A stretch of 32,469 bases of DNA from Oscillatoriales cyanobacterium (GTDB lineage: Bacteria > Cyanobacteriota > Cyanobacteriia > Cyanobacteriales > Microcoleaceae), in NCBI GenBank assembly GCA_004292745.1, contig RDXH01000144.1, positions 1-32,469 of the forward strand. Reading direction: 5' to 3'. Below, piece by piece: positions 4,038 to 20,341 of the stretch (positions within the stretch are counted from its first letter, which is position 1; each line of letters opens with the position of its first letter). Under the pieces are notes generated by a model. It saw only the letters and a list, made by a program, of their open reading frames with translations. It did no database searches and was not told where the DNA came from. The translations under genes and the position numbers were made by a program.

Positions 4038-4038
4038 G

Positions 4039-4172: not shown

Positions 4173-4201
4173 ATCCCCGACTTCTTTAAGAAGTCGGGGA
4201 T
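4173..4201. repeat. Near-perfect palindrome, 14-bp arms
   Basis: ATCCCCGACTTCTT is followed after one base by its exact reverse complement. Related hairpins with the core GACTTCTTTAAGAAGTC or a variant occur at 24908-24936 and 19541-19575. This indicates a dispersed palindromic repeat family that may also act as a bidirectional terminator. Confidence 0.7.
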
Positions 4202-4281
4202 ATAAGGGAACGCAGAAGCAAATCGCATTATGCGGTAGGATGACCCAATAGCTGATTATGATGAGTTTGTTCATGTGCCAC

Positions 4282-4308
4282 TGCATAATCCTCTGAAACC
4301 ATCCCGAT
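4282..4308 (+). promoter_or_regulatory. Bipartite motif copy 1, upstream of the sigma operon
   Basis: TGCATAA at 4282-4288, a 13-nt spacer, then TCCCGAT at 4302-4308. It lies about 30 nt before the small gene at 4338 that precedes the sigma-like gene. The same two blocks with identical spacing occur five more times in the window. It is most simply read as a -35/-10 pair for an alternative sigma factor, or as an operator. Confidence 0.75.
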
Positions 4309-4337
4309 GAACAGACAAAGTTTATCCAGAGGCGAAT

Positions 4338-4526
4338 ATGGTAACTACAATCGAGCAAATTGTCCCATACCAGGACTTCCGCAATTGGAAGTACGAAGTG
4401 GATGCAGAGAGCGATCGCATTCTCACAGGCGTTAAGGCTCTCAACCCAAAGGAAGCAGAATTAGGGGAAAGGTTGTTACTGACGCGGCAAGATTTCTTGC
4501 CAGAGAGTGCCATTACCCTATTATAG
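4338..4526 (+). CDS. Small hypothetical protein ahead of the sigma-like gene
   Basis: A 62-residue acidic protein that I do not recognise, without a signal peptide or membrane segment. It has a purine-rich AGAGGCG a few bases before the ATG, and motif copy 1 is about 30 nt upstream, so it is positioned as the first gene of the transcript that continues into the sigma-like gene at 4588 (61-nt gap). It could be a small regulator of that sigma factor, by analogy with sigma/anti-sigma pairs, or a remnant of a larger gene. Only its position supports the regulatory idea. Confidence 0.5.
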   Translation: MVTTIEQIVPYQDFRNWKYEVDAESDRILTGVKALNPKEAELGERLLLTRQDFLPESAITLL

Positions 4527-4587
4527 CAAGGGATTACTGCCCACAAGCTCATAGGAATTAGCTAATCTGAAAATACAGGGAAAAACG

Positions 4588-6069
4588 ATGAAAAAGCGCA
4601 GGGATCTTGTTGAATTATTTTCTACTTTTCTTCAGATTGATGACCATTACGATGCTCTGGGCCCCTGTTGGGAAAAGTCGCCCCGGCTGGCAAGTAATAT
4701 GACTAAGAAAATCGAGTCAGAAGCGATCGCAAATGAAGAATTTTGGGCCCAATACTGGCTGAAAGCAACTCTCAAAGACTCCCAAACCAAATCCTCGGCG
4801 AGGGAACACCTATCAGCTTACTTAGAAGAAGCCTGCTATTGGACAGCAATCAAAATTTACCAGCAGCTTGCAGCTTACCAACTACGACGAGTGGATTGTT
4901 TCTTGATGCTCAGAGAAGTAGCGGCTAATCCCGTCAAGCTCTTTAAGAACTATGACTACAAAAGTAGCAGTGTCAAAACATATTCCCAATTTGCCTTAAA
5001 AAGCGCTGTGCTGGATCAAGTGCGGAAAGGGAGAGAATTAGACAAATATACTTGGCCGGCACTACTGCGAGCAGTTACTAAAAAGCGGCTTAAAGAATCC
5101 TTGCACAAAGCCAATCTCAAAGAGCCAGAAATGTCTCAATGCTTGTTAGCTTGGCAATGTTTTCGCGATAAGTACGTCCCGACTAAAGCGGCTGGTAGTA
5201 AGCAATTGCAACCACCAGATCAGAGGCAAATGGAAGCGATCGCCAACCATTATAACCAACAGTATAATCCCCAAGAAGCCCTAAGCGCTCAAACAATTCA
5301 AAAGTTGCTAGAACTCTGCGTTCAAGTAATTCAAGATAGTTCAAAAACCAGCTTTTTTTCCCTGGAAGATTGTGTTTCTGAACCTGCTTTCATCTCTGAA
5401 GATCCCATTGAGGAGCAAGATGCTGTAGAGAGCGAATATCATCAAATTAATCAGGTTTTATCAAAAGCCTTTGCTGCTTTACCAGAAGAAGCACAGACTC
5501 TACTTAATCTCTGGTATGGATTGGGAATGACTCAATCAGATTTAGCTCTTGTTTTGGGAATTTCCCAACAGTATCAAGTTTCTAGAACGGTAGGGAAACA
5601 CAAACAATTACTGTTAAAGCCTTTGGCAGAATGGAGCAAAGAAACTTTGCAAATCACCCTAAATTCTCAGCAACTTGGTGAAATGGCTAAACAGCTAGAT
5701 GGGTGGCTAGAAGAACACTGTGCAGCACCCTTCCGTAAGGTTTTAAAGGAATCTATATTTCAGCCTTCAATCCATCCTGAAATTCAACTATTGCGGCTCG
5801 TTTTTGGGCAAAATTTAAAGCCTGAACACGTAGCTAATGAACTACAAATTAAGGAAGCAGATATCAAATTGAGGATGAATCGAGTCAAGCAAAGTTTGCA
5901 GATCAGCTTAAAATATTATGTGGAAAATACGCTGCAAATTTCTCTTGCTCCCTGCAAATCAGTAGATAAATCCACAGCCAATTTCATTGAATTGTACTTG
6001 CAAAAAGCACCTTACGCTACTTTCACAGGACTTACGCACGTCGAGGCCAGAAACCGGGTTTCGACCTAG
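4588..6069 (+). CDS. Divergent sigma-70-like transcription factor
   Basis: A 493-residue protein with sigma-70 character. Around residues 125-155 it has a region-2-like stretch (SVKTYSQFALKSAVLDQVRKG), comparable to the helix of sigma factors where a Y-x-R-I-x-D-x-I-R pattern is usual. Around residues 290-345 it has a region-4-like helix-turn-helix (LPEEAQTLLNLWYGLGMTQSDLALVLGIS), followed by a further helical C-terminal part with a second HTH-like segment (LKPEHVANELQIKEADIKLR). It precedes a DUF1822 gene, a pairing I recall from cyanobacteria. Motif copy 1 lies upstream of its operon, suggesting autoregulation. The last 13 residues (from G481) are encoded by a MITE-like repeat that supplies the stop codon, so the native C-terminus is probably lost. 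DNA binding and promoter choice are inferred. Confidence 0.75.
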   Translation: MKKRRDLVELFSTFLQIDDHYDALGPCWEKSPRLASNMTKKIESEAIANEEFWAQYWLKATLKDSQTKSSAREHLSAYLEEACYWTAIKIYQQLAAYQLRRVDCFLMLREVAANPVKLFKNYDYKSSSVKTYSQFALKSAVLDQVRKGRELDKYTWPALLRAVTKKRLKESLHKANLKEPEMSQCLLAWQCFRDKYVPTKAAGSKQLQPPDQRQMEAIANHYNQQYNPQEALSAQTIQKLLELCVQVIQDSSKTSFFSLEDCVSEPAFISEDPIEEQDAVESEYHQINQVLSKAFAALPEEAQTLLNLWYGLGMTQSDLALVLGISQQYQVSRTVGKHKQLLLKPLAEWSKETLQITLNSQQLGEMAKQLDGWLEEHCAAPFRKVLKESIFQPSIHPEIQLLRLVFGQNLKPEHVANELQIKEADIKLRMNRVKQSLQISLKYYVENTLQISLAPCKSVDKSTANFIELYLQKAPYATFTGLTHVEARNRVST

Positions 6070-6129
6070 ATATCTAGTTGAGAATCAGGTATTTGTCAAA
6101 AGAAACCCGGTTTCTTTGCGTAAGTCCTG
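6026..6129. repeat. MITE-like element with 11-bp terminal inverted repeats
   Basis: The ends CAGGACTTACG and CGTAAGTCCTG are perfect inverted repeats. Each arm also carries an inner GAAACCGGGTTTC / GAAACCCGGTTTC palindrome. The element begins inside the sigma-like reading frame and ends 12 nt before the ribosome binding site of the DUF1822 gene. Related sequences lie at 9941-9989, 16178-16200 and 17949-18053, and a fragment lies within the STAND gene near 12357-12377. Confidence 0.8.
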
Positions 6130-6156
6130 TTTCAAATAAATAAGGAGAATTGAAAA

Positions 6157-7522
6157 ATGTTGACTACTGACGAATTACTGTTCTTAAATCCCAATCAAAT
6201 CGTGCTGGATCTTTCACCACAGGAGTGTCAAGCAGCTTGGGAATCTGGTCGTCAATTTTCTAGTGATGTAGGGCGGTGGAGAAGAATCGGGAATTGAACC
6301 ACAAGTTTTTCCTAATCCAACTGAGGCAATAAATCTCTGGGAATCTATCAATGGTACGGCAATTTCTCTCGAACAAACTAGAATTGTAATTATCCCAAGT
6401 GAAGCGATAGACACTGAAGAATTTTGCGTGTCGCAAGAATGGGTAGATATCCCCAATTGGACAGCAAATTATTATTTAGCAGTGCAGGTTTCTCCTGATG
6501 ACGGTTATTTGCGGGTGTGGGGATACGCAACGCACCAACAACTGAAAGAGTCAGGTATTTACGATGAATTTGAGCGGGTTTATTCTCTTGAACGTGCTGA
6601 TGTCATTGAAGATTTGAACGTAATGTGGGTAGCAAGGCAACTCTGTCCTGATGAAAAAGTTGAGGTAGAATCCTTACCAAGTTTATCTCAAAATCAAGCT
6701 GAAACAATTTTAGCACAAATCAGCCAATATCCTCTTGATTCACTGCGCTTAAACCTGCCCTTTACACAGTGGGGAGCTTTGTTAAGTCAAAATAGTTGGA
6801 GACAGCAATTGTGGGGACAGCGAGAGGTCGCTGTGGCAACGAATCCGACTGCGGTAGTAGAAAGAACTCTCACAAATTTGTCTAACTGGTTTGAGAATAT
6901 GTTTGAAACTGGATGGCAAACAATTGCAGAATTTGTGGGACAGCCAGAAAGTAATTTAACTTTAGCATTTCGGAGCATGGAAATGGCTGTGAATCGAGGG
7001 GAAACTATTGCAAATTTAATTGACTTGATTTATAATAGTGTTGATGACGGTCAATTAAAAGTTGCGGCTCAGAGATTAGGAGAAATTGGCAATGACAATC
7101 CTGAAGCTATTGCAGCACTAATTCACCTGATTCGCACTACTGAGGATGAGGAAACTCGCTGGGCTGCGGCTGAGAGTTTGTGGACGATCGCGCCAAGCAA
7201 TCCTGCATCCGGTGTTCGGAGGATTGCAGATTTGGGAATGCAGATTGGCGATCGCGCTGTGGCGCTGATGGTAGCAATTTTGCCCAAAGCGGAAGGGAAA
7301 GTGGCTATTCTGTTGCGAGTCTATCCAATGAGGGGTCAAACTTATTTACCGTCTGGCTTGCAATTAGCTGTACTGGATGAAGATGGGGATATTTTCTTGG
7401 AAACTGAAGCGAGGGATGCTGATAATTATATTCAACTCAAATTTGGGGGCGATCGGGGTGAAAGATTTAGTGTTAGAGTAGCGCTGGGAGATGATGGAAT
7501 TACGGAAGGTTTTGCGATTTGA
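6157..7522 (+). pseudogene. DUF1822 family protein, broken by a +1 frameshift
   Basis: The start at 6157 has a strong AAGGAG site at 6142-6147 and opens MLTTDELLFLNPNQIVLDLS, but the frame ends at a TGA near 6296. The gene continues in the next frame to 7522. Removing one G from the GGG at 6271-6273 restores one reading frame of about 454 codons through VGGGEESGIEPQVFPN. The C-terminal half has a HEAT-like repeat (AAQRLGEIGNDNPEAIAALI) and the DUF1822-type ending (VRVYPMRGQTYLPSGLQ, then DNYIQLKFGG). DUF1822 proteins are cyanobacterial, of unknown function, and often lie beside a sigma-like gene as here. The reading frame is otherwise undamaged, so this is either a recent mutation or a sequencing error; an in-frame ATG or GTG at 6428 could express the C-terminal part. 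Confidence 0.8.
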
Positions 7523-7541
7523 AAGAAATTTATCGTTTCCG

Positions 7542-7639
7542 GGCGTTAGGAGTTATCCATCTCGTCGATCGTTCGGCGGTTGAAACCGCTGGCGTTAGGA
7601 GTTATCCATCTCGTCGATCGTTCGGCGGTTGAAACCGCT
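7542..7639. repeat. 49-bp tandem repeat, two identical copies
   Basis: A 49-bp unit beginning GGCGTTAGGAG and ending GGCGGTTGAAACCGCT occurs at 7542-7590 and 7591-7639 with no difference between copies. Each unit ends in the palindrome GCGGTTGAAACCGC. That palindrome also occurs at about 26641, and in reverse as GCGGTTTCAACC at about 18929, so it is a dispersed family. After the second copy, AGTCTGCCTCCGCAGACT is a further hairpin of the same composite. Confidence 0.85.
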
Positions 7640-7705
7640 ACTACACAAACAAAGTCTGCCTCCGCAGACTAAGAAATATTGACGGTTATACATCCTGATA
7701 ACAGT

Positions 7706-7731
7706 ACCCGGTCAAATGACCGGGTTTTTTT
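7706..7731 (+). terminator. Rho-independent terminator
   Basis: CCCGGTC-AAAT-GACCGGG forms a strong GC stem followed by seven T. It closes the sigma-like/DUF1822 transcript and isolates it from the GTPase unit. Confidence 0.85.
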
Positions 7732-7752
7732 ATGAAGTGCGATCGCAACTCT

Positions 7753-7779
7753 TGCATAATCTCACAAGCCTTTCCCGAT
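7753..7779 (+). promoter_or_regulatory. Bipartite motif copy 2, upstream of the dynamin-like GTPase
   Basis: TGCATAA at 7753-7759, 13 nt, TCCCGAT at 7773-7779. It lies just after the terminator at 7706 and about 107 nt before the GTPase start, as expected of a promoter for that unit. Confidence 0.75.
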
Positions 7780-7795
7780 ACATAAATAACAAAGC

Positions 7796-7842
7796 GAGAT
7801 GTCAGATATAAAAACATCCTCTGTTTTTATATCTGGCATCTC
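7796..7842 (+). other. Long leader hairpin before the GTPase gene
   Basis: GAGATG.CAGATATAAAAAC pairs with GTTTTTATATCTG.CATCTC around a 7-nt loop, giving roughly 19 base pairs with one mismatch. It begins about 17 nt after motif copy 2, so it would lie at the start of the transcript and could stabilise it or control its translation. There is no T-run. Confidence 0.7.
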
Positions 7843-7886
7843 AAAACATCCCAAAAACCATTATCATTCCTAGGAGACATGAAACC

Positions 7887-9929
7887 ATGAGTACAGAAAT
7901 CACCAATCAAATTGCTAATATACTGCAAAAGCGTAAAGCAACTGCTGATGAACCCAAGCGAAGACAAATAGATTTTTCCAAACTGCTCGCTCTAATTGTA
8001 CAAGAACAGGAAGTGTGGGAAAACCTCTGGAAACGCTTTAACCGCGACACGGTTAATATTGGAGTTGCTGGACTAGCACGCCAAGGCAAAAGTACCTTTT
8101 TGCAAAAAGTAGCTGGACTGTCTGATGCCGAGATTCCGAGTAGCGACAGAATGCCTTGCACCAGCGTGCAAAGTAATATCTATCATTCTAAACAGGACAC
8201 TTACGGACTGGTTCATTTTCATTCACAAACTTCTTTTCTAGAACAGGTAATTCTACCTTATTATCAGGAATTAGGTTTTTCCCCACCCAGAAATCTGGCA
8301 GAGTTTCGCAATAAACCATTCCCATCAGCACCAACAAATCCCCGTCAACCAGCCAAAGCTGATTCAGTTTACAGGCACTTACACGATGAATATTATGACC
8401 ACTTTGATGGATATGCTAGACTGTTACAACCACAACAAAGAGCGGAAATAATTACCAAGCAGCAAATCAAAGAATATGTTTCTCAAGAGTACGATGCTGA
8501 GGGTAATCCTCTCTTATTCAGCCATTTAGCAGTGCAAAAAGTCGATATTTTCTGTTGCTTTCCCAAAACGGATGTAGAAAAAGTTGCCTTGGTTGATATG
8601 CCTGGTTTGGGAGATACCAGATTAGGTGACGCAGAGCGGATGATTAAAGCCTTGGGACAAGATGTTGATTTTATTTTGTTTGTGCGTAGACCCCCAGCAC
8701 AAGGAGGTTTTTGGGGACAACCCGATGTTGATTTGTACGACGGAGCTTATCAAGCTTTGAAAGATAAGCTTCCCCTGGAAGAATGGTCGTTTATGGTTCT
8801 AAATTATGACGGTCAAAATGGGAATGGTTGTCAAGATTTGGAAAACACTAGGGTGAATAAAGGCATTCATGTAAAAAAATGCCTGAAAGCTGATTGTAAT
8901 AACCCGGAAGCTGCTAACAATGTTCTTGGAGAAGTTCTCTTCTACTTGGCAAATAATATTGTCCGCTTAGATAAACAATATATGTCTGCCTGTCAAAGTA
9001 GCCTGAATGCTCTGCAAATCGAGGTGAAAGCTGAACTGGAAAAAGCACGTAAAGCTCTTGAACAGTATGGAGATAGCTATGCCGAATATGTAAAGTTACG
9101 CGACCAGTTTGTAGAAGGTCTTTATGACAGTATTGAGGGACTGCGACATCAGTTAAGACAAGAGCCTAAGCAACCCGATCCAGATTTTAAGGCTCAGGTA
9201 GATGCTGCCCTTGAAAAATGCAACCAAGAACCGGGAATTCCGAAATTGGAGCAAATTCAAAGTCAAATTAACCGCAAGGGTTTTGATGGGGCTTACTTCT
9301 GGAGTATCCAGCAGATGCGAAGCAATTTGTTGAAGCATTTTCACCCACTTGAAGTTGGACTCAAGGAATCCCTCGACAAGAAAAAGTATGAGATTGCAGA
9401 AATACTTATTAAACTAGGTCTTGGAGGTATGACAGAAAAACGAGGAACCGAATTTTTGGAAGCTTTGGCACAAAAATTGCCTGCTAAGTCGAATAGTTTA
9501 AAGCTGGGATTTCAATTTCTTGCTACGTTTGAATTCCTGTATAAAGGGTTTATTCAGTCAATCGTTTGGCGAAAGATTAGTAAAAGTTTTCCCTCTGATA
9601 CAAATATACCGCTACCAACGCCAGATGATATCAATGGAATCTTAACTCATCTTCAGGATCATCATCAGGAAGCTGTTAATAACTGTCAAAAAGCTTTAGA
9701 TGGTTTGGCATTGTTAATAGCGGAGGTAGGACATTCGATGGTTGAAGAGTTTGCGGATCACATCACAAGGGGTGAGGGAGTGGAACAAGAGTGGGACATT
9801 TTTCTCGGCAAATTCCGCACGCAAGTTTGGATTGAACTTCAGGAGTTAGAAGGACGCAAGCAAGTCGAACAAGAGTGGATGACTGTCGTGGATGAGGCCG
9901 TATCCATCAATCAACAACTCGGAAGCTGA
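7887..9929 (+). CDS. Dynamin-like large GTPase
   Basis: A 680-residue protein with a dynamin-type GTPase domain. The P-loop GLARQGKST starts at G62 with K68 as the phosphate-binding lysine. A threonine in PCTSV (about residue 93) fits the G2 position, and DMPGLGDT starting at D237 is the G3 switch. The G4 region reads NYDG where N/TKxD is usual. The rest is largely helical, with long predicted stalk or coiled-coil segments from about residue 370 and a short hydrophobic helical stretch near residues 535-560 that could contact membrane. Bacterial relatives remodel or guard membranes. The start is fixed by TAGGAGAC upstream, because the nearby ATG at 7879 runs straight into a stop. It is preceded by motif copy 2. 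Membrane action is inferred. Confidence 0.8.
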   Translation: MSTEITNQIANILQKRKATADEPKRRQIDFSKLLALIVQEQEVWENLWKRFNRDTVNIGVAGLARQGKSTFLQKVAGLSDAEIPSSDRMPCTSVQSNIYHSKQDTYGLVHFHSQTSFLEQVILPYYQELGFSPPRNLAEFRNKPFPSAPTNPRQPAKADSVYRHLHDEYYDHFDGYARLLQPQQRAEIITKQQIKEYVSQEYDAEGNPLLFSHLAVQKVDIFCCFPKTDVEKVALVDMPGLGDTRLGDAERMIKALGQDVDFILFVRRPPAQGGFWGQPDVDLYDGAYQALKDKLPLEEWSFMVLNYDGQNGNGCQDLENTRVNKGIHVKKCLKADCNNPEAANNVLGEVLFYLANNIVRLDKQYMSACQSSLNALQIEVKAELEKARKALEQYGDSYAEYVKLRDQFVEGLYDSIEGLRHQLRQEPKQPDPDFKAQVDAALEKCNQEPGIPKLEQIQSQINRKGFDGAYFWSIQQMRSNLLKHFHPLEVGLKESLDKKKYEIAEILIKLGLGGMTEKRGTEFLEALAQKLPAKSNSLKLGFQFLATFEFLYKGFIQSIVWRKISKSFPSDTNIPLPTPDDINGILTHLQDHHQEAVNNCQKALDGLALLIAEVGHSMVEEFADHITRGEGVEQEWDIFLGKFRTQVWIELQELEGRKQVEQEWMTVVDEAVSINQQLGS

Positions 9930-9940
9930 AGACTCAAATC

Positions 9941-9989
9941 AGTCCTGGATGCACGAGAGGTCAAAAACCCGGTTTCTGCGTTCAGGACT
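9941..9989. repeat. Short MITE-like repeat with AAACCCGGTTTC core
   Basis: AGTCCTG and CAGGACT form short terminal inverted repeats around AAAAACCCGGTTTCTGCG. It is a reduced version of the element at 6026-6129 and lies directly after the GTPase gene. Confidence 0.65.
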
Positions 9990-10010
9990 ATTTCATTTAC
10001 ATTCTGCAAC

Positions 10011-10046
10011 TTCGCTGACAATAAAAGTTACACTCTTGTCAGCGAA
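10011..10046 (+). terminator. 11-bp stem hairpin between GTPase and CHAT genes
   Basis: TTCGCTGACAA and TTGTCAGCGAA pair perfectly around a 14-nt loop and are followed by TTTATTG. It may end the GTPase transcript or attenuate read-through into the CHAT gene. Confidence 0.5.
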
Positions 10047-10118
10047 TTTATTGTATGCTATTTTCATAATCAAACGCAAGTTTAGAAATCTTCACCTACA
10101 CAGCCCTCCAATACTATC

Positions 10119-11189
10119 ATGGGCAAATTAGTCATCCTCAAACTAGGGGGAGGTAACTTTGAACAAGGGTTCCCCGTCACTCTGCAAATTGGAGAAGAAG
10201 GTTCGCGCCCGGACGCTGAACTGACTGGCCAATTACCTCCCGCCCCCCAACTCCCGGAATGTTACAGGGAATGGCGATCGACTTATCGCAATTTAGGGCT
10301 TTCCGTCCGACTTGAGAAACCAAAGAAACAAACCACTCAAGTTTCTGTTACTCAACCTTGTACCGATGCTGCTAAACTTTTAAAAGAGGGCCTTAATGAC
10401 TGGCTCAATTCTGAAGATTTTCGACCCGTAAAAGAAGGGTTACTTAAAAAATTACAGCCATCGGAAGTCGTTCGATTAATTATTCAAACCGAAGACTTTC
10501 AACATCAGCAACTTCCTTGGCATCTTTGGGAAATCTTGCTTGAAGATTATACCAAAGCTGAAGTGGCTTTGAGCGCTCCTCAATACGATCGCGTCACGGT
10601 TCATGAAACTCCTAGAAAAACGGTCAAAATTTTAGCAATTTTAGGTAATAGTGAGGGGATTGATGTTCAGGCAGATCGGGCAATGCTCGAACAGTTACCG
10701 GGCGCAGAAATTACTTTTATTGTAGAACCAGATCGGCAAGAATTAACGGATGCTTTGTGGGAGCAAGGATGGGATATTCTTTGTTTTTCCGGTCACAGTT
10801 CCACTGAGGGTCAAACTGGACGAATTTATATCAATAAAACTGATAGTTTGACAGTTGGCGAGTTAAAAAATGCTCTCAGAAAAGCGATCGAACGGGGACT
10901 GTGTTTGGCAATTTTCAATTCTTGCGATGGCTTGGGATTAGCTCGCGATTTGGCAGATTTGCACATTCCCCAAGTGATTGTCATGCGGGAACCCGTGCCG
11001 GATTTGGTGGCGCAAGAATTTTTGAAATATTTCCTGAAAGCCTTTGCGCGAGGGGAATCTTTGTATTTATCAGTGCGGGAAGCGCGGGAAAGATTGCAAG
11101 CAATAGAAGATAAGTTTCCCTGTGCAACTTGGCTACCTGTTATCTGTCAAAATCCGGCAGAAATGCCTCCGACTTGGGGCGATACATAG
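10119..11189 (+). CDS. CHAT-domain protease, cut off from its NTPase partner
   Basis: A 356-residue protein whose C-terminal half is a CHAT (caspase-like) peptidase domain. FSGHSST supplies the predicted catalytic His226 and FNSCDGLG the predicted Cys269, after the characteristic strand pattern KILAILGN and DILCFSG. The N-terminal part (LPWHLWEIL) matches the helical region usual before CHAT domains in cyanobacteria. The frame stops at PPTWGDT, 22 nt before the Walker A codons of the following STAND NTPase, which lies in another frame. In cyanobacteria these two domains commonly form one polypeptide, so the gene is probably the 5' half of a disrupted fusion. The protease itself looks intact and could be expressed alone. 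CHAT enzymes act in proteolytic death or defence pathways; the target here is unknown. Confidence 0.85.
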   Translation: MGKLVILKLGGGNFEQGFPVTLQIGEEGSRPDAELTGQLPPAPQLPECYREWRSTYRNLGLSVRLEKPKKQTTQVSVTQPCTDAAKLLKEGLNDWLNSEDFRPVKEGLLKKLQPSEVVRLIIQTEDFQHQQLPWHLWEILLEDYTKAEVALSAPQYDRVTVHETPRKTVKILAILGNSEGIDVQADRAMLEQLPGAEITFIVEPDRQELTDALWEQGWDILCFSGHSSTEGQTGRIYINKTDSLTVGELKNALRKAIERGLCLAIFNSCDGLGLARDLADLHIPQVIVMREPVPDLVAQEFLKYFLKAFARGESLYLSVREARERLQAIEDKFPCATWLPVICQNPAEMPPTWGDT

Positions 11190-13581: not shown

Positions 13582-13612
13582 ATTCGTTAATCTAATCTCA
13601 ACTAAAAAACTT

Positions 13613-14218
13613 ATGCCCTACAGTCAATTCACGAACATTACTAAAGTTAAAGAAGCCTTCAATTTAACCACAGTAGAAGGAATCAGATTTCTGCCTGAAA
13701 TCGAACCCATCCAGCCTAGTATAGTCTTAAAAACCCTATTAGAAACTAACATCCCTTGGGCGATCGCGACTAGCACTGAAAAATCTCGATCAGAAGCTAT
13801 TATCAACCCGGTATTGCTAGAGGTTCGCCGCATTTTTAATCAACAAATCGGCGTGTTTTCGGGAGAGGAATTTAACGTTGATTCAACAGTTGGACTGAAT
13901 GGTGTTTGCGATTTTTTGATTAGCCGTTCTCCCGAACAGCTAGATATTGAAGCGCCAGCAGTTATTGTGGTAGAAGCTAAAAAAGAAGATTTGAAAGTTG
14001 GTTTAGGTCAATGTATTGCTGAGATGGTGGCGGCGCAAAAGTTCAATGAAAATAAGGGACGATCTATTAAAGTTATCTACGGTATCGTGTCCAGTGGTAC
14101 ACAATGGCGGTTTATCAAACTGGAGGGGACTACAGTGACAATTGATTTTACTGATTATTCACTACCGCCAGTAGAGCAAATTTTGGGATTTTTGGTTTGG
14201 ATGGTAAGGGAATGGTAA
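13613..14218 (+). CDS. PD-(D/E)XK nuclease-like protein
   Basis: A 201-residue cytosolic protein starting MPYSQFTNITKVKEAF. The arrangement GVCDFLI (D100), IVVEAKK (E121, K123) and GLGQCIAEM (Q133) fits a PD-(D/E)XK nuclease core with the trailing glutamine. The type resembles cyanobacterial restriction-endonuclease-like proteins of unknown target. A further upstream start at 13514 would overlap the STAND gene and reads through sequence unlike the family, so I prefer 13613, 31 nt after the STAND stop. This spacing suggests it is co-transcribed with the CHAT/STAND pair. A fragment of a paralogue survives at 17283-17352. Nuclease activity is inferred from motifs only. Confidence 0.7.
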   Translation: MPYSQFTNITKVKEAFNLTTVEGIRFLPEIEPIQPSIVLKTLLETNIPWAIATSTEKSRSEAIINPVLLEVRRIFNQQIGVFSGEEFNVDSTVGLNGVCDFLISRSPEQLDIEAPAVIVVEAKKEDLKVGLGQCIAEMVAAQKFNENKGRSIKVIYGIVSSGTQWRFIKLEGTTVTIDFTDYSLPPVEQILGFLVWMVREW

Positions 14219-14262
14219 CAAGTCTTAGAATTGTCTAATCACTTAACTTAAGGAACACAATT

Positions 14263-15930
14263 ATGAACAGATGGAAATTCCGCCGAAATACTAGCCGCTT
14301 GATTCTAGTTTTAGCCAGCTTGGTCACGTTAATTGTGATTGTAATGACAGGAGTAAGCGGTTATGCGATTGACCCAGATGGTGCTTACATAGGCGAAATT
14401 AAAGGAACAGGATTAGTCATCGGTGTTGGCAAAAGTGGCGATCGCAAACCTGCAAGTAAAAAAGACGAATTGCGACCGAATACAATTTTATATGTTCCGG
14501 GTAATAGGTCATGGGCTAACCTCGGTTTCTTCGAGGATTCGCCTAAAGATAGTACAGGATTATTAGTACAAGCAGGCCCTTCTGAAATGATTTCTGAGTG
14601 GAGTTTTCCTTGTAGCGCCAAAGGTCGATTGACAATTAATTGGAAAAAGGGTCAAAAGAGAGGATGTGAAGAAGGAGTTAAATTGCAAAGTAGTAGTAAG
14701 AAAAGTGGGTTGCCGAATAATAACGTTCAAGCTTCTCGAAGACTGTTAGCTCAAGCTGAAGATGAGGTGACGGTTGTACCAACTCCGGGACAAAGTATCA
14801 TTCAAACTGCTGATAGTGCTGCTGGCATCAGTGTTAATGTATTAGTAGGAGATGTGCGGGTTAAATCAGCAAAAAATCCTGGCGGTAGGCTGGTTAAAGC
14901 TGGGGAAAGGTATAATTATCCTCAAGATACGATTACACCGTTCGATCCGAATCCGATTTTGAATTCTCCTGAGATGCAGGATTTTGTGAATCCTAATAAT
15001 TGGTCGTCGCCTGATATTCCTCAAAGAATTGCTGATGGTTTTTCTGAACAGTTAGGAGAAATGCGATCGGCTTTGAGTCAGTTACCGCAACGAACAGCAA
15101 GTCAATCTACACAACCTCAACGAACAACAAATCAATCTACACAAAGCAATAACTGGACTTTAGAATTTCCCGTATATCCTGTGTATGAAACTTGTGGGAA
15201 TGCTTCTACAGCAAGTCTCCCACTGGTTTTAACAGGTTCTTCTTTTAGTGGTCAAATGGGTTGGTATTGGGGTGGTCAGCAATATTATTCACCCATCACT
15301 GGCACTATTACTGGGAATAATGTACAGTTAAGCTTCTCATCCCCTGATGCCGTCGTCTATCCTTACATACTAAATGGTTCAATCAATAACAAAGGGGAAT
15401 TTATAGGAACTGCGAGAATAGTAGATGGGCCTTGTGGAGGAAAGTCGGGGCCTTTCACATTGAGACCAGAATCAGTATCATCAAATTCTGGAAATAATAA
15501 CAATTCAAGTCAGCCACCTTTGAAATCTGGAGGAATCCCACCAGTAATAACTAACTTTACTTGCAATGGTAATAATTCCTCCTGCACAGCCGCATGGAAA
15601 GCATCTAACTCTCTTTCAATTAGTTATACAGACGAGGATGGTGATGCTAGTAGTTGGATAGTAAGTGGCTATACAGAAGGTAAATCTACTAACGAAGGAA
15701 AAATTTTGCCTGCCAATGGTCGTAGTGGTTCTATTGACACATCTGTAAGTTGCACATGCGAGGGGAGAGGCTGTTCTTCTACCACGACTTTCCCAATGCG
15801 GGCTGTTGTAATCGATGCTACTGGTTTACAAGGTACTGCTTCGCTGAATCTACAATGCCAACCTTCTGTTATCGATCGCCTTCAAGATATAATTCGCGAT
15901 CGCGTTCCTATTCCTCGTTTGCCGTTTTAG
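14263..15930 (+). CDS. Secreted or membrane-anchored protein with a FecR-like segment
   Basis: A 555-residue protein with a basic N-terminus and hydrophobic segment (RLILVLASLVTLIVIVMTGV, about residues 13-32), so it is probably exported or anchored. Residues 190-225 (VNVLVGDVRVKSAKNPGG, then LVKAGERYNYP) resemble a FecR-like beta domain. A Gln/Ser/Thr-rich linker near 275-300 separates it from a beta-rich C-terminal half with many cysteines (TFTCNG-like NFTCNGNN, then CTCEGRGC), consistent with disulfides outside the cytosol. TAAGGAAC lies just before the start. The gap of 44 nt after the nuclease-like gene suggests one transcript. I do not recognise a named family for the whole protein, and its role in this locus is unknown. 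Confidence 0.65.
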   Translation: MNRWKFRRNTSRLILVLASLVTLIVIVMTGVSGYAIDPDGAYIGEIKGTGLVIGVGKSGDRKPASKKDELRPNTILYVPGNRSWANLGFFEDSPKDSTGLLVQAGPSEMISEWSFPCSAKGRLTINWKKGQKRGCEEGVKLQSSSKKSGLPNNNVQASRRLLAQAEDEVTVVPTPGQSIIQTADSAAGISVNVLVGDVRVKSAKNPGGRLVKAGERYNYPQDTITPFDPNPILNSPEMQDFVNPNNWSSPDIPQRIADGFSEQLGEMRSALSQLPQRTASQSTQPQRTTNQSTQSNNWTLEFPVYPVYETCGNASTASLPLVLTGSSFSGQMGWYWGGQQYYSPITGTITGNNVQLSFSSPDAVVYPYILNGSINNKGEFIGTARIVDGPCGGKSGPFTLRPESVSSNSGNNNNSSQPPLKSGGIPPVITNFTCNGNNSSCTAAWKASNSLSISYTDEDGDASSWIVSGYTEGKSTNEGKILPANGRSGSIDTSVSCTCEGRGCSSTTTFPMRAVVIDATGLQGTASLNLQCQPSVIDRLQDIIRDRVPIPRLPF

Positions 15931-16281
15931 AGGAAAATAATGAGTTTTTCTGACCTTTTACCACAAATCAAAAAAAAAACGACACTTTATTATAGAAACT
16001 ACCCAATCCTGGGCTAGTCTCATCCTTTTTCATTCTGTAGATGAAAGAGATGCAGTGGACTCGGATGTTTGACTTGTGGGAAAAATTCCAGAATAGCGAT
16101 CGAATTTTACAGGTAGGGTGCGATCGAAATCTCCCAGAAACCAATTTGTTTCCCAATAATTCGGTTTCACATAAACAGGCGTAAAGAAACCGGGTTTCTA
16201 TGAACATTAGTTTCCCGATCGCCGATCTCGGTCTATAATGGAATTACTAACGCATCTCAATTCAGCTTGCCAACAAATTCA
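15931..16281. other. Intergenic region with a possible TATAAT promoter
   Basis: No gene seen. It contains an AAAGAAACCGGGTTTCTA palindrome at about 16182-16200 of the same family as 6026-6129. TCTATAATGG (TATAAT at 16234-16239) lies about 43 nt before the next start and is a plausible -10 box, but I see no clear -35 box. The bipartite motif of the other units is absent here. Confidence 0.45.
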
Positions 16282-16590
16282 ATGGAACCTCTACCCAATA
16301 GCTGGGCAGAAATTCAGCCTGATACAATATATCAAACAACTAATGGACTCCTAGTATCTTTTAGTCAAGCTCAAATACAACTCGGAATCAAGTATGACCA
16401 AAACAACAAACATTTGAAAGCCATTCAAAAAGGAATTGTTGCCCCTCGCGGTAATATTGGCCTGGTTCCTTCAGAAATAGAAGACTACGAGCTAAAATCA
16501 AAAGTGCTAGGCAAAGGAGGCGATCGCCGCTTTCACGCAATAATAATAGATAGAGTCTTACATTTTCCCGGTTTTGTAACAGAGCATTAA
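16282..16590 (+). CDS. Small hypothetical protein, first of three
   Basis: About 102 residues from the ATG at 16282 (MEPLPNSWAEIQP); a TTG at 16267 could add five residues. No signal peptide or membrane segment. The C-terminal part (YELKSKVLGKGGDRRFHAII) has the look of short endings found in polymorphic-toxin-type domains, where an ELK...GGDRR pattern precedes final strands, but that is only a resemblance. It lies 13 nt before the next gene, and a BrnA/CopG-like antitoxin gene follows, so the trio could be a toxin-antitoxin-like cassette. I cannot name the family. Confidence 0.6.
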   Translation: MEPLPNSWAEIQPDTIYQTTNGLLVSFSQAQIQLGIKYDQNNKHLKAIQKGIVAPRGNIGLVPSEIEDYELKSKVLGKGGDRRFHAIIIDRVLHFPGFVTEH

Positions 16591-16603
16591 TCAACAACCA
16601 ACC

Positions 16604-17014
16604 ATGACAAAACTACAATTAAAAACTCACCCAGTTTGGCAAGATTTAACAGAAGTATTAGAAAATCTAAATACCAACTATCTTGTCACAGAACATCTGG
16701 AATTATGCGATTATAAAATCTGCGGTTACTGGGATGAACAAGATGAATTTTATGAACAAATTATCTTACCCCGTTCTCTGTCTGCTGAGTTAGTTAGCAG
16801 TTCCATTGGTGTTACAGGTGAAAAGCGTTGGATTAAAGTTAAATTTATTCTCAAAGCCGATCTGCTCGTTGCAGAAGACTCTACCGATCGTAATTATACA
16901 CAAAATCTTGGCGAACTGACCATCATTTATGATGAAAATCTGCAATTTGTTGATGAAAATTGGCAGATAAATATGGATTATTTCGTTACTCGTCCAGAGG
17001 AAAAACAAAAGTAA
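16604..17014 (+). CDS. Small hypothetical protein, second of three
   Basis: A 136-residue acidic soluble protein (MTKLQLKTHPVWQDLTEVL). It has no membrane segments and no motif that I recognise. Spacing to both neighbours is short (13 nt upstream, 20 nt downstream), so it is very likely in the same transcript. It could be an immunity-type or partner protein for the preceding small protein; this rests only on gene order. Confidence 0.6.
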   Translation: MTKLQLKTHPVWQDLTEVLENLNTNYLVTEHLELCDYKICGYWDEQDEFYEQIILPRSLSAELVSSSIGVTGEKRWIKVKFILKADLLVAEDSTDRNYTQNLGELTIIYDENLQFVDENWQINMDYFVTRPEEKQK

Positions 17015-17034
17015 AGAATATAGGAGATAAAACA

Positions 17035-17244
17035 ATGGAACCGGAATACGATCTTTCAAAAATGAAAAAAAGACCTAATCCTTTTGCTAAACAGTTGAAA
17101 AAAGAGATCGCGATTTCTCTAGGAATTGATGTGATTGAATATTTTGAAGCGATGGCTCAGGAAAAAGGTATATCTTCCCAGGAACTAATTAATCTTTATT
17201 TGCAAGATTGCGTTGTTTCTAAGCGGCAATTATCTCTAAATTAG
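17035..17244 (+). CDS. BrnA/CopG-like antitoxin-type protein
   Basis: A 69-residue basic protein opening MEPEYDLSKMKKRPNPFAKQ, followed by KKEIAISLGIDVIEYFEAMA and GISSQELINLYLQDCV. This is the arrangement of short ribbon-helix-helix proteins of the BrnA/CopG type common in cyanobacteria, which bind operator DNA and neutralise a toxin. The preceding TAGGAGAT is a good ribosome binding site. No BrnT-type toxin gene is adjacent; the partner may be one of the two upstream genes, or the antitoxin may be solitary. Confidence 0.7.
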   Translation: MEPEYDLSKMKKRPNPFAKQLKKEIAISLGIDVIEYFEAMAQEKGISSQELINLYLQDCVVSKRQLSLN

Positions 17245-17282
17245 CGACATTAGCGACCGATTGCGATCGGTTGCAGATGATT

Positions 17283-17352
17283 GCGATTGAAGCACCAGCC
17301 CTTGTCATTTTAGAGGCAAAACAGGCAGATTTGAAAACAGGAATCGGTCAGC
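17283..17352 (+). pseudogene. Remnant of a PD-(D/E)XK nuclease-like gene
   Basis: The frame reads IEAPALVILEAKQADLKTGI, closely matching IEAPAVIVVEAKKEDLKVGL in the intact protein at 13613 (its residues about 112-131). Upstream sequence of the family is missing, and downstream the frame enters the direct repeat at 17361 right after the conserved GQ. It is a catalytic-core fragment of a second copy, cut by the repeat. Confidence 0.75.
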
Positions 17353-17360
17353 GATTTACC

Positions 17361-17490
17361 GTTGGGTGGGGGCGGGTTTTTGAGATTGTCGATTATAGGC
17401 AATTATTGTTGGCGAACCCGCCCCTACCGAAATTATGTTTAATTAACCTAAGATATTGTACCATTATTAACAATCTGTAGGGGCGGGTTC
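17361..17490. repeat. Direct repeat A, copy 1 (130 bp)
   Basis: Begins GTTGGGTGGGGGCGGG and ends CTGTAGGGGCGGGTTC. It recurs 183 bp downstream at 17544-17673 with few differences. The two ends contain complementary GGGGCGGG and CCCGCCCC blocks that can pair. Confidence 0.85.
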
Positions 17491-17543
17491 GCCAGTAGCT
17501 TAATAAGGATACTCAAAGACTCAAAAACCCGCCCCACCCCACT

Positions 17544-17673
17544 GTTGGGTGGGGGCGGGTTTTTGAGATTGTCGATTATAAGCAATTATTGTTGGCGAAC
17601 CCGCCCCTACCAAAATCATGTCTAATTAACCTAAGATATTGCGCCATTATTAACAATCTGTAGGGGCGGGTTC
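17544..17673. repeat. Direct repeat A, copy 2 (130 bp)
   Basis: Second copy of the repeat at 17361-17490, same orientation, offset by exactly 183 bp. The 53-bp spacer between copies has a further CAAAAACCCGCCCC block. Confidence 0.85.
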
Positions 17674-17948
17674 ACCCAGATATAACTGTCCCCAACCCTA
17701 GATATCTATAAACCCGCCCCGCCCCCACCAAAAGCCCTTTATTTACTCTTCTCTTGATCGTGTAGCCAGGAGATATATGTCAGATAGATGAAGGCAAATT
17801 CATCGAGGAAAGGTATCGGATCGGGGATAATCAAATCGATGATTGTCAGAAATAAAAAAAATTCAAACATAACCTCAAGCTTCCTTTTTTGATTGTTCTA
17901 TTCATCTATCGGGATGGGTTACGACTAATATGCACAGCTTTGTAGAAT

Positions 17949-18053
17949 AGGACTTATGCACGGGTGGCCAAAAAACCGGGTTTTTTGCCAAAATGCGCGT
18001 TACAGACCCCAAAAACCGCAAAAAACCCGGTTTCCTTGGTTTTTTGAAGGACT
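17949..18053. repeat. Degenerate MITE-like element of the 6026-6129 family
   Basis: AGGACTTATGCAC at the left end resembles AGGACTTACGCAC at 6027. It contains both AAAAAACCGGGTTTT and AAAAACCCGGTTTCC blocks in opposite orientation, and ends GAAGGACT. Confidence 0.65.
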
Positions 18054-18100
18054 AGAGAAAGGGGAGTTCACCATTAGACCTCTCCCAAAAAGCGAGTCTT

Positions 18101-18122
18101 GAACAGGCAGGATGCCTGTTCC
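18101..18122. repeat. GAACAGGCAGGATGCCTGTT palindrome
   Basis: Near-perfect palindrome; a close relative lies within the STAND NTPase gene at 11279-11300. Confidence 0.75.
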
Positions 18123-18241
18123 ACAATAATTATGGGAGATGTCTATTAGCCTTCTAGGATACGCAAACACTCAAAAACCCGCCCCCACAACACTTTCAGT
18201 CGATCGCACGCGCAATTTTCCCAATTCCCTCCCACACCATC

Positions 18242-18268
18242 TGCATAATTTTTGCTTCCTCTCCCCAC
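18242..18268 (+). promoter_or_regulatory. Bipartite motif copy 6, upstream of the coiled-coil protein
   Basis: TGCATAA at 18242-18248, 13 nt, TCCCCAC at 18262-18268. The second block is the most divergent of the six (TCCCCAC instead of TCCCGAT), but spacing and strand are the same. About 51 nt before the next start. Confidence 0.6.
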
Positions 18269-18319
18269 AAGTCAACAGAACGAAAAACAACGATAGACAA
18301 GTGCAAGGGAGCAAAAATT

Positions 18320-18817
18320 ATGAATATGTCTGGTACTTCAATGGTCGCTTTTGGTTTTGCCGCACTTCTCGGAGTCACTGGTTTTGCTTATTTGGATGCG
18401 CGGAATCAATTCGATAAAACCAAAGATCATGGGGTGGCTATTCAATTGGAGCGCGATCGGTTAAAGCAACAAGCTGATAGTTTGCAGTCGGAGCGCGATA
18501 AATTAAACAAACAAATTGAGAGTTTGCAGTCAGAGCTTAGTACGAGGAATAACCGAATCAGCGATTTACAACGCAAATTAAACGAAAGCAGAGGTGCTAT
18601 GTCAGCTTACGAAGGACAAGTCGAAACCCTCGGCGTTTGTCTCGAAGGATTTGCCAAGGGAATCAATGAAATTAATCAAGGCAATCGAGATGGGGCTATT
18701 ATTGCTTTTTCCTCTGTTTCATCTCAGTGTAAACAAGCCGACAAAATCCTTGAACAGCGAAACTCTTCTGGCTCCAGACAAGAACAACCTGCTACAACTG
18801 TACGCTCAAGTTTGTAA
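18320..18817 (+). CDS. Membrane-anchored coiled-coil protein
   Basis: A 165-residue protein with one N-terminal hydrophobic segment (MVAFGFAALLGVTGFAYL, about residues 8-25). A long coiled coil of about residues 40-95 follows (LERDRLKQQADSLQSERDKL and repeats of the SLQSE type), then a C-terminal part with two cysteines and an alanine-rich helix (GNRDGAIIAFSSVSSQC). No known family. Topology suggests a membrane-tethered rod, perhaps in the periplasm. It has its own motif copy and its own terminator, so it is probably monocistronic. A shared regulator with the dynamin-like GTPase is suggested by the motif, not by the protein. Confidence 0.75.
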   Translation: MNMSGTSMVAFGFAALLGVTGFAYLDARNQFDKTKDHGVAIQLERDRLKQQADSLQSERDKLNKQIESLQSELSTRNNRISDLQRKLNESRGAMSAYEGQVETLGVCLEGFAKGINEINQGNRDGAIIAFSSVSSQCKQADKILEQRNSSGSRQEQPATTVRSSL

Positions 18818-18848
18818 ATAATTTGATTTATATTAACAGCTTTAATCC

Positions 18849-18881
18849 TCCCATTCTCACCTAAAGAATGGGATTTATTTT
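18849..18881 (+). terminator. Rho-independent terminator after the coiled-coil gene
   Basis: TCCCATTCT and AGAATGGGA form a 9-bp stem with a 7-nt loop, followed by TTTATTTT. Confidence 0.8.
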
Positions 18882-18975
18882 GTCATCTGTTATAGTCCGC
18901 GCACCATCCGAACTTCCTTTGTGTAGTCGCGGTTTCAACCAGCGATCTAATTTTATCTCTCTCTTAACTCTATAC

Positions 18976-19002
18976 TGCATAAACTCCTCACCCATTCCCG
19001 AC
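18976..19002 (+). promoter_or_regulatory. Bipartite motif copy 3, upstream of the first membrane paralogue
   Basis: TGCATAA at 18976-18982, 13 nt, TCCCGAC at 18996-19002, about 80 nt before the start at 19083. A GCGAG...CTC leader element follows, shared with the copy at 19635. Confidence 0.75.
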
Positions 19003-19082
19003 AAATAAACAGAAGATGCGAGGCGAGACAATTACTGCTCTCACTCCTACCTCTATACACAAACTAATAAAGAGATAGAACT

Positions 19083-19514
19083 ATGACTTTTGACAATACA
19101 GCTAAAAATCAAAATCAAGCGATCGCAGGACAAATAAAAGCCAAAAAAAAATCCGAAATAGTGAAGCTATCTCAGTTGAATACTTCGGCGGCTATGCTCC
19201 TCAGTGCTATCTTTCCCATTGGCGGTTATATCTACACGAGACGCTGGCTTTCTTGCCTGGGTTTTCTGTTAGGAGGATTAGCGGTTTTCACCACTGTTTA
19301 CACCACCGAACTGGAACAGGATAAAACTGATTCAATGGTATGGACTTTCTGCGCGCTATACGGATCTACTGTTGCACCGATCGATAATGCTCGTGCGATC
19401 GCCCGTGCTCGCGAAAGAGTTAGCAATCTCAAGCCCCATCACACCAGAATTGCATACTTACAGCGCGATGATTTTGGGAAGTGGGAGCAAAAGTTGTTGA
19501 CTACCAGTAATTGA
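19083..19514 (+). CDS. Small multipass membrane protein, paralogue 1
   Basis: A 143-residue protein with a charged N-terminus and two or three hydrophobic segments: NTSAAMLLSAIFPIGGYIYT (about 35-54), LSCLGFLLGGLAVFTTVYT (about 57-75) and possibly MVWTFCALYGSTVAPI (about 85-100). The pattern PIGGY.YTRRWLS.LGF resembles TM2-like small membrane proteins. It closely matches the next gene (19749) over the first 115 residues and carries an extra 28-residue tail (HHTRIAYLQRDDFGKWEQKL). Its leader region is also duplicated, so the whole transcription unit was copied. Function unknown. Confidence 0.75.
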   Translation: MTFDNTAKNQNQAIAGQIKAKKKSEIVKLSQLNTSAAMLLSAIFPIGGYIYTRRWLSCLGFLLGGLAVFTTVYTTELEQDKTDSMVWTFCALYGSTVAPIDNARAIARARERVSNLKPHHTRIAYLQRDDFGKWEQKLLTTSN

Positions 19515-19540
19515 ACAACGGCTAAAAAAACAGAATATTC

Positions 19541-19575
19541 AGAACCCCGACTTCTGGGCGTGAAGTCGGGGTTCT
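19541..19575 (+). terminator. Hairpin after paralogue 1
   Basis: AGAACCCCGACTT and AAGTCGGGGTTCT form a 13-bp stem around a 9-nt loop. It belongs to the same palindrome family as 4173-4201 and probably ends the upstream transcript. Confidence 0.65.
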
Positions 19576-19634
19576 TGCTTAGTAACAGTTTCAACCGCCG
19601 AACCCTCTAATTTTTTTCTCTTTTAACTCAATCC

Positions 19635-19661
19635 TGCATAAACTCCTAACCCAGTCCCTAT
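19635..19661 (+). promoter_or_regulatory. Bipartite motif copy 4, upstream of the second membrane paralogue
   Basis: TGCATAA at 19635-19641, 13 nt, TCCCTAT at 19655-19661, about 87 nt before the start. Surrounding leader sequence is similar to that of copy 3, so this copy is explained partly by duplication. Confidence 0.7.
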
Positions 19662-19748
19662 GAATAGAAAGAAGATGCGAGACGAGCCAATTGCCGCTCT
19701 CACAGTTACCCCAAGACACAAACTACAAACAAATCAGGAGATAAAACT

Positions 19749-20096
19749 ATGACTACCACCCAAAATAAAATTCAAGCCATCAACGAACAAATTGAAGCCG
19801 AAAAATTAGGCAAAGTAGTTAAGCTATCTCAGCGAAATATTGGGGCCGCCATTATCCTCAGTGGTATCCTTCCCATTGGTGGCTATGTCTATACGAGACG
19901 CTGGCTTTCTTTCCTGGGTTTTATGTTAGGAGGATTTGCCCTTTCTATGGCGGTTTATACAATTGAACCCGAACGGGAGAAAGCTGATTCAATGGCATAC
20001 ACTCTCTGCGCGCTATACTGCTCTATTGTTTCACCGATCGATAATGCTCGTGCCATCAGCCGTGCTCGCGAAAGAGTTACTGATTTATCCCAGTAA
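19749..20096 (+). CDS. Small multipass membrane protein, paralogue 2
   Basis: A 115-residue paralogue of the preceding gene, with the same order of features: charged start, SGILPIGGYVYTRRWLSFLG, LGGFALSMAVYTIE, DSMAYTLCALYCSIVSPIDN and NARAISRARERV. It lacks the tail of the first copy. AATCAGGAGATAAAACT gives a strong ribosome binding site. Function unknown; its motif copy places it in the same presumed regulon as the GTPase. Confidence 0.75.
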   Translation: MTTTQNKIQAINEQIEAEKLGKVVKLSQRNIGAAIILSGILPIGGYVYTRRWLSFLGFMLGGFALSMAVYTIEPEREKADSMAYTLCALYCSIVSPIDNARAISRARERVTDLSQ

Positions 20097-20126
20097 AGTT
20101 TAGTGAAAATAGATTACAGCTTAAAT

Positions 20127-20158
20127 AAAACCCTAGGTTCTAAGAAACTGGGGTTTTT
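20127..20158 (+). terminator. Imperfect hairpin with T-run after paralogue 2
   Basis: AAAACCCTAGGTTCT pairs imperfectly with AGAAACTGGGGTTTT and is followed by further T-rich sequence (TACTTTTTT). Confidence 0.6.
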
Positions 20159-20243
20159 ACTTTTTTAAATATTCGCCTTATTTCTTAGTCCCTCTCTGCT
20201 GGGACTTCGTTTGACAATAAGCGATTTCAATCGCCGAGCGATC

Positions 20244-20270
20244 TGCATATTTCGATCGACCTATCCCGAT
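20244..20270 (+). promoter_or_regulatory. Bipartite motif copy 5, upstream of the secreted protein
   Basis: TGCATAT at 20244-20250, 13 nt, TCCCGAT at 20264-20270, about 71 nt before the start at 20342. Here the second block continues as CCCGATAA. Confidence 0.7.
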
Positions 20271-20341
20271 AAAAAAACAGAAATGAGAAAGCTCAAAGAA
20301 ACAGTTTACTTCAACAAATATTAACACGAGGAACAATCGCC

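Follow-up and report, generated by a model that had tools for sequence, protein, structure and literature searches.

The 32,469-nucleotide (nt) contig RDXH01000144.1 of an Oscillatoriales cyanobacterium (assembly GCA_004292745.1), analysed here over its entire length and referred to as the window, carries a cluster of genes that includes a divergent sigma-70 family gene, together with seven copies of a short bipartite element, TGCATAW-N13-TCCCNAY. An initial annotation, made from the DNA alone, had listed six copies, at 4282, 7753, 18242, 18976, 19635 and 20244, and both these coordinates and the exact 13 nt between TGCATAW and TCCC are confirmed. It had also stated that all copies lie on the + strand, which is true of the six listed, but a seventh, TGCATATTAGTCGTAACCCATCCCGAT, unlisted at the time, occupies the minus strand at 17934-17908. 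Element 1 (TGCATAA-N13-TCCCGAT with a conserved downstream stretch, 4282-4320, +) precedes a 62-amino-acid (aa) YbjN-like remnant and the sigma gene, element 2 (7753-7791, +) a dynamin-family GTPase and element 3 (18242-18280, +) a coiled-coil membrane protein; elements 4 (18976-19014, with an orthologous site in genome G043), 5 (19635-19673) and 6 (20244-20282) follow on the + strand, and element 7 (17896-17934) lies on the minus strand, 5' of a 43-aa open reading frame (ORF). The next start codon lies 29, 107, 51, 80, 87 and 71 nt past the second block in elements 1 to 6 and 37 nt past it in element 7, a range of 29-107 nt that agrees with the 30-110 nt reported earlier, and each element is oriented as the ORF downstream of it. 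The proposal that at least three copies lie just after a terminator-like hairpin is partly borne out: a terminator scan supports it for the copies at 7753 (hairpin at 7706-7725, 28 nt 5' of the copy) and 18976 (18849-18873, about 100 nt 5'), and the hairpins visible before 4282 and 19635 have no T run and fall below the threshold of that scan, which returned 20 terminators in total, close to its shuffle mean of 17.5.

Downstream of element 1, the 62-aa ORF (4338-4526, +) aligns to both ends of longer YbjN-like proteins, such as that of 184 aa in genome G175, and is probably an internally shortened copy; the Pfam YbjN model gives the G175 relative 18.7 bits, under its cut-off of 22. The sigma gene (493 aa, 4588-6069, +) starts 279 nt 3' of the copy at 4282, behind this ORF, and is followed by a DUF1822 gene, of which the longest open part (6428-7522, +; Pfam DUF1822, 272.5 bits) is preceded by a broken frame with stops between 6158 and 6428, the relative in Roseofilum acuticapitatum BLCC-M154 being full-length. 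Next come the GTPase behind element 2 (680 aa, 7887-9929, +; Pfam Dynamin_N, 27.5 bits, cut-off 27), a caspase-like CHAT-domain protein (10119-11189, +; Pfam CHAT, 46.6 bits), an nSTAND1 NTPase ORF (11122-13581, +; Pfam nSTAND1, 348 bits), a PD-DExK-like ORF (13514-14218, +; PADLOC PD_DExK, E 3e-53) and a 555-aa ORF (14263-15930, +), probably exported, with relatives in the Roseofilum cluster and no Pfam family above cut-off. The remaining elements each precede a small gene: the 43-aa ORF (17739-17870, minus strand), which is DUF6116-like (26.8 bits, cut-off 27), follows element 7; a coiled-coil protein of 165 aa that has a single hydrophobic segment at its N-terminus (18320-18817, +) follows element 3; a 143-aa membrane protein (19083-19514, +) follows element 4; its 115-aa paralogue (19749-20096, +), a Roseofilum relative of which also carries the element, follows element 5; and a 168-aa, probably secreted protein (20342-20848, +), with element-bearing relatives in Roseofilum and G163, follows element 6. 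The regulon members first suggested thus stand, with the amendments that the first small ORF is the shortened YbjN-like one with the sigma gene behind it, and that the 43-aa minus-strand ORF is added.

In order to evaluate how specific the element is, the entire genome (5,909,242 bases, 408 contigs) was scanned, as the initial annotation had proposed. The pattern TGCATAWN13TCCCNAY has seven exact matches, all of them on the window contig, and a control pattern read backwards has none; likewise, TGCATAW-N13-TCCC is not found in any of 100 dinucleotide-shuffled versions of the window. The chance of seven independent matches all falling on one contig of 32,469 bases is about 3e-14, but two of the seven are a duplicated pair. 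When two mismatches are allowed, the genome yields 370 matches versus 174 for the control, so such loose matches are uninformative. A matrix built from 24 sites recovers the seven copies in the window, where no other place scores above 12.

These 24 sites were picked by the exact pattern and then aligned, so the invariance of TGCATA, TCCC and A in their consensus, cTGCATAATTTCCTnAnCCTnTCCCGATAAATAAACAGAA, is a product of the selection, and it is the columns outside the pattern that are informative. They include a C three bases 5' of TCCC (1.2 bits) and twelve columns 3' of GAT (0.5-1.5 bits each), where a further block, AAATAAACAGAA, follows the second one; the conserved region consequently extends about 12 nt beyond the motif first described. 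The consensus was compared with that published for the sigma-28 (FliA) promoter, given as TAAAGTTT-n11-GCCGATAA (PMC2859248): 12 of 16 positions agree, with n11 the best among ten spacings, and only 7 of 20000 shuffles of the consensus match equally well. The likeness is strongest in the -10 octamer, where GCCGATAA and the element's CCCGATAA agree at 7 of 8 positions with the same 11-nt spacing, which supports the earlier suggestion of a sigma-28-like second block. In the -35 octamer it is partial (TAAAGTTT versus CATAATTT, 5 of 8), and the element differs from the sigma-28 promoter in that its best upstream block is TGCATA and that a conserved stretch follows the -10 region.

This resemblance also bears on the possibility that the element is the promoter of a sigma factor encoded elsewhere, such as SigF or SigJ. 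The second block does look like that of sigma-28-type promoters, and in a published comparison the -10 region of Synechocystis SigF is likened to the J-box (PMC6495340). However, the exact motif is restricted to the cluster in this genome and, as described below, tracks homologues of the local sigma; the J-box itself, described in the same source for SigJ of Nostoc punctiforme as GGGaAtacT with a weak -35, likewise serves an alternative sigma of filamentous cyanobacteria as its promoter, but the element has a strong upstream block and, by eye, GGGaAtacT is absent from the 24-site consensus. We regard recognition by such a distant sigma as very improbable.

Among 40 genomes of the family, 24 encode relatives of the window sigma (E<=0.001); with a four-row alignment as query, 388 genomes of the order gave 129 with relatives at E<=1e-60. 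The pattern TGCATAWN13TCCCGAY has 50 matches in 36 of these 388 genomes. When a close sigma homologue is defined by E<=1e-110, a cut set after the list was seen, six of the nine genomes with a close sigma carry 16 matches and 30 of the 379 others carry 34 (p 3e-5). Excluding the window's own genome leaves five of eight with the motif (p 2e-4), and since four of the nine genomes are rows of the query alignment A2, these were also excluded, leaving three of five versus 30 of 379 (p 0.005). More than two matches are present only in the window's genome (five) and in G175 (six), where one lies 189 nt before a close sigma gene (contig C3), two more lie about 33 kb from this first sigma beside a CHAT/nSTAND/DUF1822 gene, and three are within 7 kb of a second close sigma gene (contig C4). 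In R. acuticapitatum (locus L085) the gene order is as in the window, with CHAT and nSTAND1 fused in one 1096-aa gene, and sites are found before the sigma gene (with two mismatches), right after DUF1822 and before a lipoprotein-like gene, with two more ahead of genes related to the membrane paralogues and the secreted protein of the window. The element recurs beside close homologues of the window sigma in Roseofilum, Okeania and other genera.

Several other candidates were tried in these loci and not retained. A de novo search for repeated dyads in each homologous locus gave mostly AT-rich noise and was dropped, and CCGATA/CCCGAT/CCGACA strings in 13 loci were mostly background among the matches listed. 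Weak matches TCCATAACTATTAACTTA..TCCCGG in several g7/g8 loci were rejected as lying inside the DUF1822 gene, and exact matches TGCATAAAGAATATTTAG.GTCCCCAC common to g7 genomes were discarded, being probably conserved coding DNA. Ahead of more distant sigma genes of the long type, TGCATAA is retained and the second block is variable: in the 700 nt before 41 such loci, some of them fragments, TGCATAW occurs 22 times on the strand of the gene versus 7 on the other (p 0.008). Loci L043, L044, L048 and L049 have a conserved TGCATAATTTA upstream of the sigma gene, and after it another second block, AGAYAAGAAGAT, which might reflect a changed -10 preference in that sigma clade.

The relationship between the element and its putative target genes was assessed with a matrix trained without the tested genome, comparing 600-nt upstream regions with 150 control stretches; gene starts were taken from tblastn and ORF outputs. 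In 26 of 35 regions the best site beats all 150 controls, and 21 of 30 do so outside the window, five being the window's own genes. Sites precede 8 of 15 sigma genes, 6 of 7 YbjN-like genes, all four membrane paralogues, all three members of the 168-aa family and one of two coiled-coil genes. For the 125-aa secreted family (G037, G147) and the 81-88-aa family (Roseofilum, G175) the score of 2/2 each is partly selected, as these families were found because the site precedes them, and what counts there is the homology of the genes across genera. Sites recovered although outside the training set include those of the sigma genes of Roseofilum, G202, G383, G014, G038, G043 and G051, of the YbjN-like genes of G147 and G038, and of the 168-aa relative in G163. 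The presence of a site before the sigma gene in several other genomes, Roseofilum among them, supports the autoregulation that had been suggested at first. The element precedes YbjN-like genes in G175, G147, G159, G038 and G040, the site in G040 being an identical copy of the first one in the window.

Some of these sites are distant from the sigma gene. In G028 a relative of the window GTPase (53% identity; its ORF ends after 165 aa) has the element, with one base changed, 309 nt upstream, on a different contig from the G028 sigma, and of two matches in G037 one is 242 kb from the sigma gene and the other on another contig; targets in trans are thus possible. A DO-GTPase1 protein (36.0 bits, cut-off 27) follows an element in G175 (L141, contig C4, 8320-10587, minus strand), and in G383 an 808-aa protein with a P-loop, recognized by eye, follows a site at 11869 on the minus strand (L153, contig C164). 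Judging from these genes, GTPases may be recurrent members of the regulon.

The evidence from related genes also applies to the possibility that the copies merely represent a short repeated sequence or a mobile element devoid of a regulatory role. The copies at 18976 and 19635 are indeed alike past the blocks (spacer 85%, downstream 60 nt 78%), confirming the duplication recognized earlier, although this pair is the fourth and fifth of the list and corresponds to the "copies 3 and 4" of the initial annotation only if counted from zero. A promoter-like element is also present as a tandem triplicate in G022 (L152, contig C34, minus strand, 5730/5586/5443), with a spacer one base longer; it adjoins DUF1822 and CHAT genes, and no close sigma was found in that genome. 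Nevertheless, the spacers of the other pairs are 23-62% alike and their flanks differ while the blocks stay constant, and in other genera the element persists before related genes although its spacers differ, by which this explanation is largely refuted; its probability is negligible.

A 45-column profile derived from the 24 sites was run on 40 genomes, with E-values that are optimistic. It recovered all 24 training sites and gave 13 new hits at E<=0.01, nine of them no farther than 10 kb from a DUF1822 or sigma gene, versus about 1% expected by chance; the gene positions are those among the matches listed, with the exclusion of additional fragments of a gene already counted and of several rows of G061, in which the profile has no hit. 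Two of the 13 hits nearly copy training sites (G037:C59:344800 and G040:C217). The four that are not near such genes are a relic-like one in G040, one about 12 kb from the G147 cluster, the G028 GTPase site and an unexplained one in G009. With regard to G040, locus L078 (contig C217, 10597-13928) is syntenic with 1013-4437 of the window and departs inside the 62-aa ORF, so that the element and the initial codons are left; this genome, 92% complete, yielded no close sigma and, on the basis of synteny, has apparently lost the cluster and kept a relic promoter.

The protein encoded at 4588-6069 matches the NCBIfam sigma70-ECF model TIGR02937 (57.5 bits, cut-off 42.9, residues 77-345) and Pfam region 4 (Sigma70_r4; 24.4 bits, cut-off 24.1). 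The next best NCBIfam model, FliA/WhiG, scores 39.1 bits, far under its cut-off of 189.6, and the Pfam scan gave no region 2. When a profile of 23 homologues was compared with solved sigma factors, two segments, 118-148 (region 2, 11.6 bits) and 383-446, showed weak similarity to FliA, and 281-350 matched other sigma factors. The AlphaFold2 model has a mean predicted local distance difference test score (pLDDT) of 85.9 and a predicted template modelling score (pTM) of 0.44. A Foldseek search with the whole model returned nothing at E<=0.001; its first four matches (E 1.5e-3 to 2.3e-2, probability 0.99-1.00) are sigma factors, two of them recognized by their entry names, and their template modelling (TM) scores by query are low (0.17-0.19), as expected if the domains are arranged in another way. 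Taken by itself, the C-terminal part (133 aa, pLDDT 82.5) has a profile match to solved FliA (E 0.0017) and resembles sigma region 4 in 3hug and 2h27 (probability 0.91-0.99, TM 0.68-0.74 by target, root mean square deviation 2.1-2.6 A, Foldseek E 0.5-1.9), with other helix-turn-helix proteins lower down. Because of the profile matches and the fold comparison of the C-terminal part, the protein likely has two region-4-like domains, at about 281-350 and 383-446, and profile and fold hint at a region 2 segment as well.

The uncertain region 2, which lacks a Pfam match and is represented by the 11.6-bit FliA stretch, gives room to a different explanation, namely that the element is the operator of a transcription factor, or that the sigma-like protein is a plain DNA-binding regulator acting by way of its region-4-like domains, and that another holoenzyme initiates nearby. 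The conserved block is in addition longer than most promoter elements. However, the element is non-palindromic, its orientation and its distance to the next gene are fixed, and it resembles a known promoter at the right spacing, and we consider an operator unlikely.

Apart from the absence of a Pfam region 2 match, several results weigh against a promoter class dedicated to this sigma. Thirty genomes without a close sigma contain 34 exact matches, of which five are explained (two in G147 and one each in G043, G159 and G040), and an extension of the motif to the commoner, approximately 400-aa sigma paralogues was not supported, as TGCATAW was found in none of seven upstream regions. No good site exists within 600 nt of the sigma genes of G037, G016, G028 and G163; none was found before the sigma of G147 or the second sigmas of G175 and G202, where a YbjN-like gene intervenes, and in G202 the site of this gene is truncated where the contig ends. 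Sites are also absent upstream of the G175 coiled-coil relative and of two GTPase paralogues in Okeania G014, and no ORF of at least 60 aa is present within 420 nt of an exact site in G383 (C164:26661). At E 0.01-0.1, just 6 of 27 new profile hits are near DUF1822 or sigma genes, and sigma-less genomes also yield hits in this range.

All considered, the bipartite promoter and regulon first proposed are supported by the comparison across genomes, and we think it probable that the seven elements form one promoter class read by RNA polymerase carrying the cluster-encoded sigma (4588-6069). Recognition by this sigma is inferred from co-occurrence, position and promoter likeness, whereas the motif, its restriction within this genome to the cluster, its conservation alongside the sigma and related targets, and its similarity to sigma-28 promoters were computed directly. 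According to this proposal, the -35 role would fall to TGCATAAT and the -10 role to CCCGATAA, which is sigma-28-like and placed at sigma-28 spacing, and the A-rich conserved stretch after the -10 would lie near the start site. The sigma would transcribe its own operon, creating positive feedback, and also the separately promoted membrane, secreted and GTPase genes. Since its neighbors are DUF1822 and CHAT/nSTAND genes, we hypothesize an order of events in which the CHAT/nSTAND protein senses stress or an invader, the sigma is then released or activated, perhaps via DUF1822, and the holoenzyme reads the element, so that the sigma operon and the separately promoted genes are switched on together. 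Both the trigger and a role in defence or cell death are suggested by the gene company and by the proposal of Kaur et al. discussed below. Only tentatively do we put forward a fuller picture, in which immunity or cell death would be controlled by a STAND/caspase-type sensor coupled to an RNA polymerase holoenzyme of its own. The sigma of that holoenzyme, with two -35-binding-type domains, would read a private sigma-28-like promoter present in multiple copies ahead of the effector genes, would feed back on itself and could also act on chromosomal targets outside the cluster.

Other features of the window and its genome deserve mention. Three genes look shortened or split in comparison with their relatives (YbjN-like ORF 4338-4526, DUF1822 6158-7522 and CHAT/nSTAND1 10119-13581), owing to either decay or assembly error. 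Three small + strand ORFs without the element lie at 16267-17244, in the interval that separates the operon from the promoted array, and two tandem-like duplicated intergenic repeats are found at 17360-17690, which is G+C-rich, and at 20985-21185. The window's own genome encodes a second, distant sigma relative (G000:C12:2880-4070, loci L033 and L057; 29% identity) with a DUF1822 gene after it and no TGCATAW within 700 nt upstream.

With respect to known systems, the window protein may be compared with family J.1 of the cyanobacterial sigma-70 factors, described as containing region 4 only (Gevin et al. 2024, PMC11119718). It would be placed there by Pfam content alone, as Sigma70_r4 is the sole Pfam match above cut-off, but it differs in its suggested region 2 segment and second region-4-like domain; if true, such an unusual architecture would be of use for studying promoter recognition. 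Neighborhoods of EACC2-caspase, DUF1822 and ECF-sigma genes have been predicted to form an apoptosis or immunity system (Kaur et al. 2021, eLife, PMC8195603), a prediction in which the sigma acts on many genes and for which the published text, in the parts that concern this system, names no promoter or targets. Among the papers searched, DUF1822 is otherwise mentioned in a table of a genome comparison. Likewise, no promoter or regulon of this sigma came up in a search of titles and abstract openings, which did not cover subscription papers and preprints. The neighborhood was previously spotted by gene order, with control of many genes by the sigma put forward as a proposal, and our results suggest that this predicted conflict system includes an alternative sigma that has its own private promoter. 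A promoter signature would allow targets to be read from the DNA of other cyanobacterial genomes; it supplies as candidate effectors small membrane and secreted proteins, GTPases and YbjN-like proteins, and the element offers a simple reporter for finding the trigger. As in the system of Kaur et al., sigma-like, DUF1822 and caspase-like (CHAT) genes adjoin in the window, in an order kept in Roseofilum, and the STAND NTPase domain is among the partners in their list; a conserved region precedes CHAT, and no EACC2 model is among the Pfam or NCBIfam matches of the cluster proteins. The window cluster differs from the system as published in the promoter element and the target genes that are proposed for it here.

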